In this document: positions 5,864 through 11,346 of the stretch, in pieces | How positions within the stretch are numbered: position 1 is the first letter of the stretch | Layout: each line of letters starts with the position of its first letter | Assembly: GCA_025331435.1 (NCBI GenBank) | Contig: JAIWNI010000005.1 | Location: forward strand, 186,001-250,000 | Reading direction: 5' to 3' | Source of the DNA: Choanephora cucurbitarum | Taxonomy: Eukaryota; Mucoromycota; Mucoromycetes; Mucorales; Choanephoraceae | Length of the DNA: 64,000 nucleotides | Notes under the pieces: model-generated | The model's database searches: none | Told to the model about the DNA's origin: nothing | The model's input: the letters and a program-made list of their open reading frames with translations, nothing else | Made by a program: the position numbers and the translations under genes

Positions 5864-5878
5864 CCGGCCTTAGCTCAG
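5864..5878 (+). repeat. Target-site duplication, left copy (tRNA-Tyr 5' fragment)
   Basis: The 15 bases ccggccttagctcag are identical to the first 15 nucleotides of the tRNA-Tyr gene at 10659-10673. The match stops exactly at both ends: the preceding bases differ (a versus c) and the following bases differ (gtgaaac versus ttggtag). This is the upstream copy of the insertion target and is all that is left of the tRNA on this side. Confidence 0.9.
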
Positions 5879-6158
5879 GTGAAACATTATATTTTATTAT
5901 ATACAACAATTCTTTGGGCAACTCTATGGAGCATAAGCCGAATTGGATGAACTAAACTAAATAAAAGAGTGGGAAAAAGTACAAAAAACCCAGCAGAAAA
6001 ACGAACAAAAGGGAAAAGAGGAAACAGAAGGACAGGAAGAGAGAGCAACAGAGTACTGAGACAACTTTAGAGCCCAAAGGCAGCACCAACGGATGGGAAC
6101 TTTGATAATCACTTACCACCGTGGTTGCGCAGTGAGCAGGCTAAAGAGGTCATTTTGT

Positions 6159-9100
6159 CTATGGAGAGATCGGAGGAGAAGGAGGAGAAGGAGGAGGAGG
6201 AGGAGGAAGCCATGATCCATTTGGATCAGGTTCTGGAGCGATGGTAGCAAGAGGATGCACCAGAGAGTCTATTGCATGAAGCAATTGGAGAAGAGAGGAC
6301 CAAAAAGGAGGGGGACCAGTGGAAGCCTTTACAGGCAGAGAGTTGAGGGCATGGTCGATCGGATGAACGCCAGCCGGAGGAGAAGGGAGGTCGAAAAAGA
6401 GGGATGGATCAAGTGCACTACAAGACAAGAAATGATCTCTTGAAATATAGGCACCGGAGAGGCAGGGACATTCTTCACGAAGATTCGCAAAGCGACCAAG
6501 ACGCCAACGAACAAGCCTACTGCGAGCAGTAGTTGTCATTGGGAGGTAGAGGATTGGATCCGGCTTTGAAGTGCACGGACGACAGGCACGCAAGAGGACA
6601 GCACGGCCACGAGAAGCTTGAGTTGCCATTTGGCGGTTGAACTGATCCTGCCAATATCGCCTAAAGTGAGCACGAAGCTCAACATTAGAGACAGGCGGTG
6701 GATCAGGGAGAGAGAGGTAGAGAGCATTCTGTTGAAGAAGCTTAGAGAGGCGAGGGTACCGTAGTTGATCACGTAAGAGCACAAGCAAGCAGTCATCAGG
6801 GAGGTATTGTACACGAAGGACGTACCTTGTGACAAGGACATTGTACCTATGAATCATGGCAGGCAGGCAAGTGATGTGTTTTGCTACTTGAAACCAAGAG
6901 CCACCAATGAACATACGGACCAGCCGGTTTTGAAGGTCATCGAGCTGTTTCATATCTGAAGAGGAGATACGGGCAATAGCCAGGCCATACTCTATCTTGG
7001 GACGGATAAAGCAGGCATACAGTCGAGAGGACAGGAGGAGAGAGAAGCCGTTACGGTGGACACCTACTGAGACCAGCAGGGCCATGGTCTTGACAGCCTT
7101 AGCTGCACGAAAAGAGACAAGATCTGGACCAGAAATGCCCTTTGAGCGAAAAGGTACACCGAGGTATACAAATTCGTCAACGAGCGGTAACGGTTCATCG
7201 TACAACGTCAATCGTGGGCCATCAGGTCGTGCGTTGAGGACAGCACATTTAGACGGACTCCAGCGATATCCGAGGGAGCGAGAATGCTCAGCAGCAATGT
7301 TCAGCATCCGTTGGACCTGACTACGAGAGCCAATGATCGCAACGTCGTCCGCAAAAAGAAGACAATTCAGAGGAATTGGAGAGGTAGAAGGCGAACCAGG
7401 TGGACATACCAAAGTAGTACCAGCCGAGGCAGCAGAGCGAAGCGCAGAGGGAAGAGAGTTGATGTACAGAGAGTACAGATGCGGGGAGAGAACAGAGCCT
7501 TGGAGAACACCAGTGACAGGAGAGAAAGGCGCAGAGGAATGGTTAGCGATCAGCACCGAAATCTGAACGTCATCAAACAAGTTGATGAGCAATCCGAGAA
7601 GTGGGCGAGGTAGAGAAGAATCAGCCAGAGCATTCCAGATGACACGTCGGTCAACAGTGTCATAAGCAGCCTTGATGTCAAGGAAAGCAACCACAGGACG
7701 GCAATGATTGGTAAGCAGGTAGTCATGCATCAAGTCATGCAAGCAGAGGGCTTGATCCAGAGGGCTACGCTGCGGGCGAAAGCCACCTTGCGCAATGTCA
7801 AGTGGAGGCGAGTGTTCATAGAGACAGTCAGAGATGGCAAACTCAAAGAGCTTACGCATAACCGACGTCAGAGAGATTGGCCGATAGTTTGCAGGATCAG
7901 AGGGATCGTTTTTCTTGTGTATCGGAAATACACTGGCTAGACGCCAGAGAGAAGGAGTGTAAGACCATTGATAACACAGAGAGAAGAAGAGAGAGAGGAG
8001 CGGGGCAAGGTCCGTTGCAACGGCCTTCAGCATTTCTGCTTTCAGGTGATCGCTACCCGGTGCCTTGCGTAGAGGTAACCGCTTGATGTGATCCATGATA
8101 GCATCTACAGAGAAAATGTCCAAATCATCAGGCAGAGCAAAAGGAAGCAAACTATCGTGAGGTGATGGAGCAGAAGGGCGAGCGTCAGGCGCAGGCAAAA
8201 GGGAACCGTTGTAGACAGTGGCCAAGTGAGAGGCCATGGTATCCACTGATGCAGCAGGACCGTCAGGATGAGCATAGGTTGATGAGCAGTCACGACGCCT
8301 TTTTATCCTTGAAAGAGTGGCCGTAGCTTTAGAGAAATCTTTTTCAAGTTGGGCACAGAAATTCTTCCAAGAGAGACGTTTTGCCTTTGATACCAAACGA
8401 CGGAACGAACGATGAGCATCAAGATGCAACGACCACCAGTACGCTTTGTCAACACCTAGGGCGTGACGCCACATACTATAACAGCGATCGCGTTCACGAG
8501 CAGCAGACTCGATTTCCGAAGTCCAGTATTTCTTCCACCACTTACCAGACCGAGGTGCTCTCACACCAACCGATCCATCCAAGGAATCGTAGAAGCACTC
8601 ATTAAGAGTAGCATTCAGACCATCAATGTCAGGGCGGCATGTAGGAGGAGAAGCAACCAGAGCGGACAGCGCATCACCCAAGGGCGAGACACTAGTCCTA
8701 AACCTGGACCTAAACAGAGCTAGCGGTTCCGTGTCTTGCAAGCGAGACAGGTTCCAAAGCCGTCTAGGAGCCAAGGTTGGCGCCGAAGCACCAGCAGCCA
8801 CAGACGCATAGTCGAAAGACAGAGTCAACAATCTATGGTCAGAGCCAAGAGACAAGTCAGATTCTACCACGATCTGAGCCGAACGCATATCCTTTTCAGG
8901 TATATTTGTTACGAACAGATCGATGATGCTACTCACTTCCCTTTCACGCCGAAACGTAGAAAAGGTAGCAACACCTGGAGAAAGAGACGAGTTAAGCACA
9001 GCCAACCCACATTGTTCAAGCCATGTTGCCATAGCAAGTCCACGGGGATTGGTAGCGGAATCACCGGTAAGAGCACCAAAACGAGCATTGAAGTCACCAC

Positions 9101-9530
9101 AGATAATGGAGTCAGAGTGAAGGGGGATTTGTTGTAAAGCGGATAACACCAGATCATTAGAGATACTGGGTGGAAAATAAACACAATGCACATTGACCTT
9201 ATCAATTTTCAGTGAAAGAGTGTATGCATTGAGGGAGGGAAGTTGAGAGACAGAGTGTTGGCAATGAGGAGAGATGAGTGCCGAAACACCACCAGAACCA
9301 CGGTTGTTTGCGTTTATTAGCTTCTTGCCATAGAGATGGTACTGAGACCACTCAACTGGAAGAAAGCCAGATGTGAGCCAAGTTTCTGTCACAAAGAGGA
9401 CATCGGTGTGGAGGACATGGGATAGGACATCGTGGATGGTTGAGGCCCGAAGGCCATTAGCATTCCAGATGCTTAGAGAGAAGGAGCGGAGAGGGGTGGG
9501 TATAGAGAAAGGATCTGTAAGAGGACTCAT
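6159..9530 (-). CDS. LINE ORF2: endonuclease and reverse transcriptase, 1,123 aa
   Basis: This is the enzyme of target-primed reverse transcription: the endonuclease nicks the target and the reverse transcriptase copies the element RNA. The N-terminal 240 residues form an APE-type endonuclease with IWNANGL near 21, TETWL near 48, GDFNARFG near 146 and SDHRLL near 229. The reverse transcriptase follows: APGSDHLKAEML (about 490), YRPISLTSV (about 555), FLDIKAAYDTVDR (about 620), GVLQGSVLSP (about 680) and the catalytic FADD at about 725-728. Near 1015-1032 a C-x-C...H-x4-C cluster (ECPCLSGAYISRDHFLSC) resembles the terminal zinc motif of other LINE ORF2s. No RNase H domain is visible. The C-terminus ends in an odd run of prolines and serines, encoded by GGA/GGAG repeats on the plus strand. 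The start ATG overlaps the ORF1 stop as TAATG. Confidence 0.95.
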   Translation of the reverse strand: MSPLTDPFSIPTPLRSFSLSIWNANGLRASTIHDVLSHVLHTDVLFVTETWLTSGFLPVEWSQYHLYGKKLINANNRGSGGVSALISPHCQHSVSQLPSLNAYTLSLKIDKVNVHCVYFPPSISNDLVLSALQQIPLHSDSIICGDFNARFGALTGDSATNPRGLAMATWLEQCGLAVLNSSLSPGVATFSTFRREREVSSIIDLFVTNIPEKDMRSAQIVVESDLSLGSDHRLLTLSFDYASVAAGASAPTLAPRRLWNLSRLQDTEPLALFRSRFRTSVSPLGDALSALVASPPTCRPDIDGLNATLNECFYDSLDGSVGVRAPRSGKWWKKYWTSEIESAARERDRCYSMWRHALGVDKAYWWSLHLDAHRSFRRLVSKAKRLSWKNFCAQLEKDFSKATATLSRIKRRRDCSSTYAHPDGPAASVDTMASHLATVYNGSLLPAPDARPSAPSPHDSLLPFALPDDLDIFSVDAIMDHIKRLPLRKAPGSDHLKAEMLKAVATDLAPLLSLFFSLCYQWSYTPSLWRLASVFPIHKKNDPSDPANYRPISLTSVMRKLFEFAISDCLYEHSPPLDIAQGGFRPQRSPLDQALCLHDLMHDYLLTNHCRPVVAFLDIKAAYDTVDRRVIWNALADSSLPRPLLGLLINLFDDVQISVLIANHSSAPFSPVTGVLQGSVLSPHLYSLYINSLPSALRSAASAGTTLVCPPGSPSTSPIPLNCLLFADDVAIIGSRSQVQRMLNIAAEHSRSLGYRWSPSKCAVLNARPDGPRLTLYDEPLPLVDEFVYLGVPFRSKGISGPDLVSFRAAKAVKTMALLVSVGVHRNGFSLLLSSRLYACFIRPKIEYGLAIARISSSDMKQLDDLQNRLVRMFIGGSWFQVAKHITCLPAMIHRYNVLVTRYVLRVQYLPDDCLLVLLRDQLRYPRLSKLLQQNALYLSLPDPPPVSNVELRAHFRRYWQDQFNRQMATQASRGRAVLLRACRPCTSKPDPILYLPMTTTARSRLVRWRLGRFANLREECPCLSGAYISRDHFLSCSALDPSLFFDLPSPPAGVHPIDHALNSLPVKASTGPPPFWSSLLQLLHAIDSLVHPLATIAPEPDPNGSWLPPPPPPSPPSPPISP

Positions 9531-9532
9531 TA
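9528..9532 (-). promoter_or_regulatory. TAATG stop-start junction between LINE ORF1 and ORF2
   Basis: On the minus strand the ORF1 stop TAA and the ORF2 ATG overlap in TAATG. UAAUG junctions are known to support termination-reinitiation in the insect LINE SART1; use of the same mechanism here is inferred. Confidence 0.75.
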
Positions 9533-10468
9533 AAGAGACATTACAGAATCACTATCGTCAGAGCCGGTCTTTGAGAAAGCAAAGGACTTGGCACGGGGAT
9601 CTTGAGCCTGTTGGCGAGAGTGAGCAGCGGCGACAGCAGAACGGAGATCGGTGTCATCGATCCATCCCCAATCCAAAAAGGAACGGGCAACAGAACCGAC
9701 AACAACAGGACGAAGGAAAGAGAGAGTGTCAAGAGCACGACCGTTAACCAGCTCATGCATTTGAGCGGCACGTTGGTCGACCGACAGAGAGGCAAACTTG
9801 GGATCAGCAAGGTTGGATGGATCCAAAGGATCGAAATCCTTCACAAGCTCAGCGCCAGCCTTCTGCATGACAGCAGTGAATTGCTCCACATACTGCACAT
9901 GCATCAGGACACCGAGAACACCAGAAGCAGGAAAAGAAATGTCAAGGACACGGCCGGTATCAACGCCAATGCGGCGAAGACGAGAACGAACCTCAGATCT
10001 ATTGATCTTACGAGAGCGGCCAAGGTAAACATATTTAAAGCCTTGAGGACCTTTGGCCCCAGGGCTCATAAAAGCACGAGCAGCAGCTACACGCTTTTTG
10101 GTAGAAGGTGCACGAGCCTTCTTGGCAGGTGCAGCAGCAGAGACAGGAGAGGAGAGAGCAGGTTTGGCAGCAGCAGCGGCCCAAGAAGAAGCAGAGGTAC
10201 CATTTGTATCATCTGATACAGAGCGTACAGGATTAGCTACCTGTGAGTTGACTAAATTGAGAAGTCTTTCATTCTCAGAGATTAGTTTTTTATTTTTTTC
10301 CTCAAGGGAAAAAATTTTTTCTTGAAGAGACTCGATATGTTTGAAGAGCCCATCATGTTGTTGAACCTGTTGTTGCAACTGCAACACAAGTGTCTGAAGA
10401 TGTTGCAAGTCAACGGGTTGATTGCGAACAAAAGAGGTGGGTGCAGTTTGTTGCATTGGTGTAGTCAT
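9530..10468 (-). CDS. LINE ORF1: coiled-coil RNA-binding-type protein, 312 aa
   Basis: First cistron of the retrotransposon, presumably the nucleic-acid chaperone that packages the element RNA. Residues of about 20-75 form a Gln/Leu-rich coiled coil with heptad leucines, followed by an Ala-rich, Lys-rich basic stretch (about 95-135) and a C-terminal domain (about 140-300) with a pattern like VYLGRSRKINRSEVRSRLRR. No CCHC knuckle or clear RRM is visible by eye, so the fold is uncertain. The start ATG at 10466-10468 follows a leader of about 190 nt. The stop TAA at 9530-9532 shares one base with the ORF2 start. Confidence 0.85.
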   Translation of the reverse strand: MTTPMQQTAPTSFVRNQPVDLQHLQTLVLQLQQQVQQHDGLFKHIESLQEKIFSLEEKNKKLISENERLLNLVNSQVANPVRSVSDDTNGTSASSWAAAAAKPALSSPVSAAAPAKKARAPSTKKRVAAARAFMSPGAKGPQGFKYVYLGRSRKINRSEVRSRLRRIGVDTGRVLDISFPASGVLGVLMHVQYVEQFTAVMQKAGAELVKDFDPLDPSNLADPKFASLSVDQRAAQMHELVNGRALDTLSFLRPVVVGSVARSFLDWGWIDDTDLRSAVAAAHSRQQAQDPRAKSFAFSKTGSDDSDSVMSL

Positions 10469-10651
10469 CTTGAAAACTAACTTTCAAAACGACTCGTATA
10501 AATGTGAAAATAGAGGTACTGGTGGTCTAAGCTTTGTTGCAAGTTATGTCTATGAGCGATGAGAGTGTTTGTGCGTTGCCAGTATACTTCTTGAGTGTAT
10601 GAGCAATGTAATTGGCTAGTTCTTGAGCTTCAAGTCACTACAAAAAAAAAA

Positions 10652-10658
10652 GTTTCAC
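10652..10658 (-). repeat. LINE 5' terminal heptamer (GTGAAAC)
   Basis: On the minus strand the element begins GTGAAAC followed by ten T. The inverse heptamer GTTTCAC closes its 3' end at 5879-5885, so the termini are a 7-bp inverted repeat. Chance cannot be excluded at this length. Confidence 0.6.
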
Positions 10659-10673
10659 CCGGCCTTAGCTCAG
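10659..10673 (+). repeat. Target-site duplication, right copy (part of intact tRNA-Tyr)
   Basis: Identical to 5864-5878. This copy forms tRNA nucleotides 1-15, so the insertion left a complete tRNA gene on this side. Confidence 0.9.
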
Positions 10674-10741
10674 TTGGTAGAGCGGAAGACTGTAGTTAAT
10701 CTGTCATCTTTAGGTCACTTGTTCGAATCAGGTAGGCCGGA
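10659..10741 (+). tRNA. tRNA-Tyr (anticodon GTA) with a 10-nt intron
   Basis: The 7-bp acceptor stem CCGGCCT pairs with AGGCCGG, with discriminator A at 10741. The D arm is GCTC/GAGC. The anticodon stem GAAGA pairs with TCTTT (one G-U), anticodon GTA lies at 10692-10694, and the T arm is ACTTG TTCGAAT CAGGT. A 10-nt intron at 10696-10705 sits after position 37, the usual eukaryotic place. The A and B boxes are intact. The gene lies immediately beside the 5' end of the antisense LINE. Confidence 0.92.
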
Positions 10742-10751: not shown

Positions 10752-11346
10752 GATAATTTTGATAAAAAGTGAGACGTTTCTGTGTCGTTAGAACACATGT
10801 TCTAGTTTTTTGCAGTAACTTGTTAGAGGGGATCAACAAACACAACACTACAGTTAGGCAACAAATTTATAAGCAGTAACCATTATATTATTAGCCACCC
10901 AGTTATAAATGTAGATAGAATAAAGAGAAACCATGTGTTTTATGGAAAGAGAATACATTGATGAAATGTAGCATCGAGGGAACTCAAGCCGATATAACAA
11001 GATGATATATGTTGATGCTTAAACAGAACAACCTAGAACACAATAGTCGCTCTTTTTAACAGTTATATATTCTCGAGAATTGTACTCTTAAATTGAGCGA
11101 CTACTGTATAGATTTCAGTTCAGAGAATTCAGAAAATAATCGAGTACGTTTCAGGTCATCTAGATGCATAACACATGTATCAAGAACAAGCGAAATGCCG
11201 TATGGTATGAAAATAGATTTCTTTTTAACAATGATTCAGGGAGATCCGAATACCAATTCGATTTCGAAAGCAATAGACGTAGCTCCAAGTATTGATCATT
11301 AGTGAAATTTATTTATTTACAAGACAATGTGTATTATAATGCTCTA
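10752..11346. other. Intergenic region downstream of tRNA-Tyr
   Basis: About 600 nt of AT-rich sequence between the tRNA and the 3' end of PEX6. No convincing gene; short frames here lack coding character. Confidence 0.5.

Follow-up and report, generated by a model that had tools for sequence, protein, structure and literature searches.

A LINE family inserted at one position in the A box of several tRNA genes of a mucoralean fungus, with a target duplication that appears to rebuild the gene

The element in tRNA-Tyr

The DNA stretch of 64,000 nucleotides analysed here (the window) corresponds to C303:186001-250000 of the 33.4-Mb assembly of Choanephora cucurbitarum, a member of the Mucorales, and all genome-wide counts given below refer to that assembly. 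A protein encoded in the window shares 88% identity with Blakeslea trispora, as would be expected of a mucoralean host, probably from the Choanephoraceae. In the window, a 4.8-kb long interspersed element (LINE) was identified inside a gene for tyrosine transfer RNA (tRNA-Tyr), antisense to the tRNA, and was found to be one copy of a multicopy family. This is a target-specific LINE: independent copies use one target position. Its 3' end lies on the left and adjoins a stub of tRNA nucleotides 1-14, while its 5' end adjoins position 1 of tRNA-Tyr, which is a correction to the first-pass annotation of this DNA. The following features were assigned (window positions):

5864-5877, plus strand: left copy of the target duplication, tRNA-Tyr nucleotides 1-14, a truncated 5' stub (exact repeat, junction comparison)
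5878-10658, minus strand: LINE copy with its 3' end at 5878 and its 5' end at 10658 (junction comparison)
5878-6158, minus strand: 3' untranslated region, ending ...ATAATGTTTCACC, without a poly(A) tail
6159-9530, minus strand: open reading frame 2 (ORF2), 1123 amino acids, with an apurinic/apyrimidinic (AP)-type endonuclease, a reverse transcriptase and a C terminus with Cys/His
8829-9467, minus strand: endonuclease domain, ORF2 residues 22-234 (Pfam, PF03372/PF14529)
7152-7922, minus strand: reverse transcriptase domain, ORF2 residues 537-793 (Pfam, PF00078), with FADD at 726-729
9530-10468, minus strand: ORF1, 312 amino acids, with an N-terminal coiled coil and a conserved C-terminal half
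10639-10658, minus strand: 20-nucleotide filler, forming the 5' terminus of this copy
10659-10672, plus strand: right copy of the target duplication, tRNA-Tyr nucleotides 1-14 (pair comparison)
10659-10741, plus strand: complete tRNA-Tyr(GTA) with a 10-nucleotide intron (ARAGORN; Rfam, 56.8 bits)

The exact 15-bp direct repeat CCGGCCTTAGCTCAG, reported in the first-pass annotation, is present at 5864-5878 and 10659-10673. This 15-mer occurs five times in the genome, as two pairs of stub and intact gene about 4.8 kb apart and as one empty gene, which is far beyond chance. However, the duplication was found to comprise 14 bp in all three informative pairs, namely tRNA-Lys(CTT) on C294, tRNA-Ala(AGC) on C19 and a non-tRNA site on C5. 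In each of these pairs the right copy has A as its base 15, and the left copy has G at this place (TCAG next to the element in the Lys and Ala pairs); since the left G persists where the target has A15, base 5878 (G) was assigned to the element. In the remaining pairs, base 15 is G (Tyr, Ile and C113:248566) or the right side is another stub, and lengths of 14 and 15 bp are indistinguishable. By the three informative pairs the insertion lies in the A box, as annotated, but after A14 rather than after nucleotide 15, and the left stub has 14 and not 15 nucleotides; the complete, intron-containing tRNA-Tyr on the right was recovered both by ARAGORN and by Rfam. The nicked strands were assigned by applying target-primed reverse transcription to the observed junctions, from which the first nick would be placed after A14 (10672/10673) and the second at tRNA position 1 (10658/10659). 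Off-target copies have duplications of their own, of 14 bp on C5 and of 14 or 15 bp on C113. Because the C5 copy, which is 81-84% identical to the window element, shows 14 bp at a non-tRNA site, the stagger appears to belong to the enzyme and not to the tRNA, and the position of the nick would decide that a whole tRNA results.

The element in the window had been described as full-length, with the inverted ends GTGAAAC...GTTTCAC as a trait to be searched for in other copies. Neither description held. Eight of nine other aligned 5' ends terminate in GCGAAAGAAA(A/G)G(T/C) and adjoin a tRNA or a stub, one is broken off earlier, and the window copy is 5'-truncated and carries a filler seen in none of the nine. 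Copies on C19, at C113:248566 and at C294:10709 are also 5'-truncated. The last seven bases of the filler mirror the 3' end of the element, as if template-switched. In addition, AAAGAAAAGT, with which some LINE 5' ends terminate, was seen directly before a tRNA-Cys (L107, C137, around 2288) and is perhaps a remnant of an earlier LINE; a BLAST search of the 2.4 kb read here gave no LINE match.

Both reading frames, ORF1 (10468-9530) and ORF2 (9530-6159), are open and catalytic motifs are kept, in agreement with the first-pass annotation, as judged from the Pfam domains and from alignment to L1. A profile of the ORF2 family (54 relatives) was aligned with human L1 ORF2p from the endonuclease through the reverse transcriptase (E 3.9e-49). 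Key residues are invariant or nearly so across the 54 aligned sequences, and N23, E49, D146, N148, D204, D231 and H232 align with what we take to be the catalytic positions of human L1 ORF2p. No RNase H domain was found among the Pfam matches in ORF2. In ORF1 the coiled coil is the only recognisable feature, with a weak profile match to the coiled coil of L1 ORF1p (E 0.0011). The ORF1 stop overlaps the ORF2 start as TAATG (9528-9532), an arrangement known from SART1, which suggests coupled translation of the two frames. From its sequence, the element is classified as a non-long terminal repeat (non-LTR) retrotransposon of the AP-endonuclease type, with profile scores to L1 and R2 in the PDB that do not decide its clade within LINEs; hallmarks of LINEs are present in the constant 3' end, the 5' truncations and the 14-bp target duplications. 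Among the matches listed, the named relatives of the LINE proteins belong to Mucorales and related Mucoromycota, and those from Mucorales are numerous.

Insertion sites of the family in the genome

A search with the 3' region of the element gave at least 23 matches, from which three internal fragments (one on C246, two on C57) were dropped, leaving 20 junctions. Eighteen of these have the same 3' end, and two diverged copies differ slightly. In fourteen, the element directly adjoins a sequence equal to nucleotides 1-14 of a tRNA that could be identified: two are of tRNA-Tyr, three of tRNA-Ile(AAT), four each of tRNA-Lys(CTT) and tRNA-Ala(AGC), and one of tRNA-Lys(TTT). The element is antisense to the tRNA in every one of these fourteen. 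Three more, in an array on C235, adjoin the A-box-like GCTTCCTTGGCTCA; here the third copy is cut short by the contig end, and the tRNA is not assembled. Other exact matches to GCTTCCTTGGCTCA exist at two places in the genome, and ARAGORN found no tRNA at either. Together, the 17 A-box-like junctions are spread over 11 contig places. Between a lucky insertion and a tRNA-specific LINE lineage, both of which had been offered in the first-pass annotation, the junctions at 14 identified tRNAs and three A-box-like sequences speak for the lineage. The term 'tRNA-Tyr-specific' is too narrow, since one family uses at least five isoacceptors. Copies that are about 99% alike occupy different isoacceptors (Tyr on C90 and Ile on C292, 99.2%; Tyr on C303 and Ile on C347, 99.1%) and therefore form one family rather than isotype lineages. 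The antisense tRNA stub of the element had also been considered as a guide to the isotype and was rejected for the same reason.

On the opposite, 5' side of the element, the same tRNA was found complete at six of the 11 tRNA-like loci (C303, C90, C294, C19, C292 and C40), and a complete tRNA sequence is present at seven LINE-bearing genes. Three tRNA-Tyr genes were detected with a 30-nucleotide body pattern allowing up to three mismatches: an empty one on C9 and two with a LINE, on C90 and in the window. All three are identical over 83 nucleotides, and the three Ile copies are likewise identical to each other. Judged by these comparisons, the duplication restores the sequence of the target gene, and expression of the restored tRNAs is predicted.

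The same comparison of tRNA genes gave a side observation. A shared repeat (window, about 10757-11110) lies up to 600 bp downstream in nine of ten tRNA genes compared (L036, L039, L044-L047, L052, L053 and the window, the tenth offering only 21 bases), the empty tRNA-Tyr included, and is possibly a downstream-targeting element.

The extended A-box patterns TRGCNCARNNGGNNAGAGC and TRGCNCARNNGGTAGAGC identified nine genes (Ile-AAT 3, Tyr 3, Ala 1, Lys-CTT 1, Lys-TTT 1). At seven of them the LINE directly precedes the tRNA, with 57-60 matching bases among the 60 upstream; the two others are the tRNA-Tyr on C9, with no element match in 5 kb, and the tRNA-Lys(TTT) on C112, for which only 20 upstream bases were read. 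For tRNA-Ile(AAT), exactly three genes were found (35-nucleotide body pattern, up to three mismatches) and all three have the LINE upstream, as do two of the three tRNA-Tyr genes. As a control, 59-60 upstream bases each were compared for 40 other tRNA genes out of 52 on an Rfam list, seven of which already belonged to the genes analysed above; the list is incomplete, 63 of 1531 candidates having been scored. In none of the 40 does a LINE match touch the tRNA; four (Cys L076, Val L086, Gln L089 and Thr L090) show weak matches of 12-18 bases at some distance from it.

Upstream of seven control genes, recurring ends were noticed by eye about 7-12 bp from the tRNA, ...AAGACGAC in one set (L072, L075, L091, L095) and ...TTCATTATATTTCA in the other (L083, L094, L101), resembling in position Ty3-type tRNA-targeted LTR elements. 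At C251, the 5' end of the LINE is broken by a sequence similar to a repeat found next to other tRNA genes, where its end is 9-12 bp upstream of the tRNA. If that repeat were a tRNA-seeking LTR element, the restored tRNA would still have been recognised, a lead rather than a proof.

Arrays were found on C294, where four tRNA-Lys stubs precede one intact gene, and on C235 with three stubs, which suggests repeated landing on the same gene. Nine long copies are 90.5-99.2% alike over their shared length, and the C5 copy and one C294 piece are more diverged (81-87%). In four copies, including that of the window, the ORF2 frame is stop-free over at least residues 1-1120, from which recent activity of the family may be inferred.

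Eight diverged ORF2 relatives (34-70% amino acid identity) were identified on C146, C326, C357, C112, C16, C350, C295 and C256. A motif scan revealed no family-like 3' end among them, and their own 3' ends could not be delimited. ARAGORN reported a single tRNA in these regions, a tRNA-Thr on C146. The relative at C146:225550-228530 (L053, L054; 65-70% at the amino acid level, with stops) starts less than 1 kb from this gene in the same relative orientation; a stretch of 751 bases read there showed no similarity to ORF1, nor do the 60 bases preceding the tRNA-Thr match the LINE, and no junctions of this relative were found. Outside this genome, a scan of viral contigs gave nothing, and a scan of genome contigs gave four pattern-matching stretches, none encoding a relative.

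Proposed mechanism and alternative explanations

In target-primed reverse transcription, which is established for LINEs, the strand joined to the element's 3' end is nicked first. In this family, the nick made by the endonuclease would fall within the A box, on the tRNA-like strand and directly behind the invariant A14 (TAGCTCA^R). The 3' end so released on tRNA nucleotides 1-14 would act as primer for the reverse transcriptase, which would copy the element RNA beginning at its fixed 3' end. The opposite strand would be cut 14 nucleotides away, at tRNA position 1; once the stagger is filled, the 3' end of the element would be flanked by a 14-nucleotide stub and its 5' end by the whole tRNA gene. 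The renewed target would be open to further insertion, giving rise to arrays, and low-copy essential tRNA genes could be occupied; both the repeated insertion into one gene and the low-copy occupancy would follow from this renewal. We consider it highly probable that an AP-endonuclease LINE family lands at one position of tRNA genes and that the duplication rebuilds the gene. Recognition of the sequence by the endonuclease, the order of the nicks and repeated landing as the cause of the arrays are inferred parts of this proposal.

Several observations weigh against it. Insertion at sequences unrelated to tRNA genes, named in the first-pass annotation as what would speak against tRNA specificity, was found at three of the 20 junctions (C113:248566, C5 and C147), not at the other 17. 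These three sites share with the target only CA before G. At C147, the 13-mer TGGCGAATAGCACA was tried as the start of a tRNA and rejected because it occurs nowhere else in the genome; the junction was therefore counted as non-tRNA. The expectation that copies lie between a tRNA 5' fragment and an intact tRNA, correct for the six loci named above, fails at C175, where a tRNA-Ala stub on the left is paired with a tRNA-Ile on the right (which may reflect an unusual insertion, a recombination event or a misassembly), and at C251, with no tRNA in the 554 bases remaining on the contig beyond the LINE; at C347, C113:359374, C235 and C147 the right side lies beyond the contig end. Two copies of the C19 array are truncated at the same base, so that this array includes a duplication, and some arrays may be later duplications. 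Finally, four of the 40 control genes (one tRNA-Cys, three tRNA-Phe) contain TAGCTCAG and yet have no LINE, and this motif occurs 790 times in the genome as compared to 630 times for its reversed control. The short motif alone is thus insufficient for targeting: either a longer sequence is read by the endonuclease, or factors of RNA polymerase III (Pol III) assist.

The latter possibility leads to tethering, a mode of targeting proposed for TRE5-A, by which the ORF1 or ORF2 protein would bind the Pol III machinery (TFIIIB/TFIIIC) and the endonuclease would add a short CA^R preference that fixes the base. The abundance of TAGCTCAG favours it, since all 14 junctions with TAGCTCA nevertheless lie at tRNA starts, as nucleotides 1-14, and so does the short CA common to the off-target sites. 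Moreover, the ORF1 protein of TRE5-A is described as interacting with TFIIIB subunits (PMC5911963). However, in none of the 36 control tRNA genes without TAGCTCAR does a LINE match touch the tRNA, which argues that Pol III occupancy alone is insufficient, and the off-target copies show that cutting is possible elsewhere. We regard tethering as a possible but less probable explanation. A further possibility is that the copies multiplied chiefly by gene conversion or recombination among tRNA loci, instead of by repeated insertion. This would account for the common truncation base on C19 and for the two tRNAs at C175; it is very improbable in view of the agreement of stub and tRNA for four different tRNAs, the differing 5' truncations and the separate duplications of the off-target copies.

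Random insertion, followed by selection that kept the harmless, tRNA-restoring copies, would fit the three junctions located elsewhere. Intergenic DNA should then shelter random copies equally well, whereas 14 of the 20 junctions lie at one and the same nucleotide of tRNA genes, all in one orientation, and seven of the nine genes with the extended motif are occupied, which makes this explanation very improbable. The chance that the tRNA is carried as part of the element, as in tRNA-derived repeats, is next to nil: the 5' end of the element does adjoin a tRNA at seven genes, but copies about 99% alike adjoin different tRNAs, at six loci the stub changes along with the tRNA, and tRNA-Tyr on C9 and tRNA-Lys(TTT) on C112 exist without the element.

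Whether the spacing of the cuts was selected for survival of the host is a separate question. The stagger of 14 nucleotides spans exactly the stretch between the A14 nick and tRNA position 1 and would be the shortest that rebuilds the whole gene. On this basis, an evolved, host-sparing trait appears somewhat more probable than not.

Relation to known elements and significance

LINEs with a restriction-like endonuclease have been described in tRNA genes, namely NeSL-1_TV (tRNA-Pro), LIN15_SM (tRNA-Arg) and LIN25_SM (tRNA-Glu) (PMC4640811). Like the present element, they are specific for tRNA genes; however, they are placed near NeSL, in the restriction-like-endonuclease clade, with one isotype each, and no tRNA-restoring duplication is described in the passages on them (PMC4640811), whereas the element reported here has an N-terminal AP-type endonuclease, uses five isoacceptors or more and leaves the gene restored. 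The dictyostelid TRE5, TRE3, NLTR-A and NLTR-B are tRNA-gene-associated LINEs that do not destroy the tRNA, and TRE5-A uses an AP endonuclease (PMC5006619, PMC5911963). NLTR-A, inserted 2-6 bp upstream of the mature tRNA, is nearest in position, and the main text of PMC5006619 makes no mention of target site duplications. These elements are described upstream or downstream of the tRNA, and NLTR-A and NLTR-B with an RNase H domain; in the present element, by contrast, the cut falls within the A box, and it is the duplication that rebuilds the tRNA. The insertion outside the tRNA at variable distance, typical of TRE5 and TRE3, is replaced here by a fixed A-box position at 14 of the 20 junctions.

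Several families of Dada DNA transposons insert at tRNA nucleotides 8-13, and are named for their main isotype, some using more than one (PMC3706591, PMC8869645). They target an overlapping A-box motif, but possess a DDE transposase, produce 6-7 bp duplications and leave the tRNA disrupted, while the present element encodes a reverse transcriptase and makes 14-bp duplications. Utopia, a LINE of U2 snRNA genes, resembles the present element in persisting in a low-copy essential RNA gene, with at most 10 intact U2 genes per Phytophthora genome, a persistence that Kojima and Jurka found hard to explain (PMC4640811). Unlike the present element, which renews its target, Utopia disrupts it, and disrupted genes outnumber intact ones (PMC4640811). 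Grem-LINE1 of Mucor is pericentric and, like the present element, a mucoralean LINE with ORF1 and ORF2, compared here by description only; the word tRNA is absent from the main text of its report (PMC7377519). In a paper on R2, as far as its treatment of targets goes, tRNA genes are named only as a class of LINE target (PMC5035012). A literature search by titles and abstract openings, in which subscription journals were little covered, gave no tRNA-restoring LINE with several low-copy isoacceptors. The combination of an AP-type endonuclease, an A-box target that several isoacceptors have in common and a gene sequence restored exactly is apparently new.

The finding bears on how such elements persist. 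Target-specific LINEs have been thought to depend on multicopy targets, of which each insertion kills one. This family shows an alternative, in which the duplication made on insertion is also what repairs the target. Several tRNA genes share this natural insertion site, and their sequence stays whole after its use; the family also makes testable how the endonuclease of a LINE and the second cut set the length of the duplication. If the spacing has evolved to spare the host, the family would not need high-copy targets; it could saturate essential low-copy tRNA genes and land on them again indefinitely, and the host would read all its detected tRNA-Ile(AAT) genes from 5' flanks supplied by the LINE.

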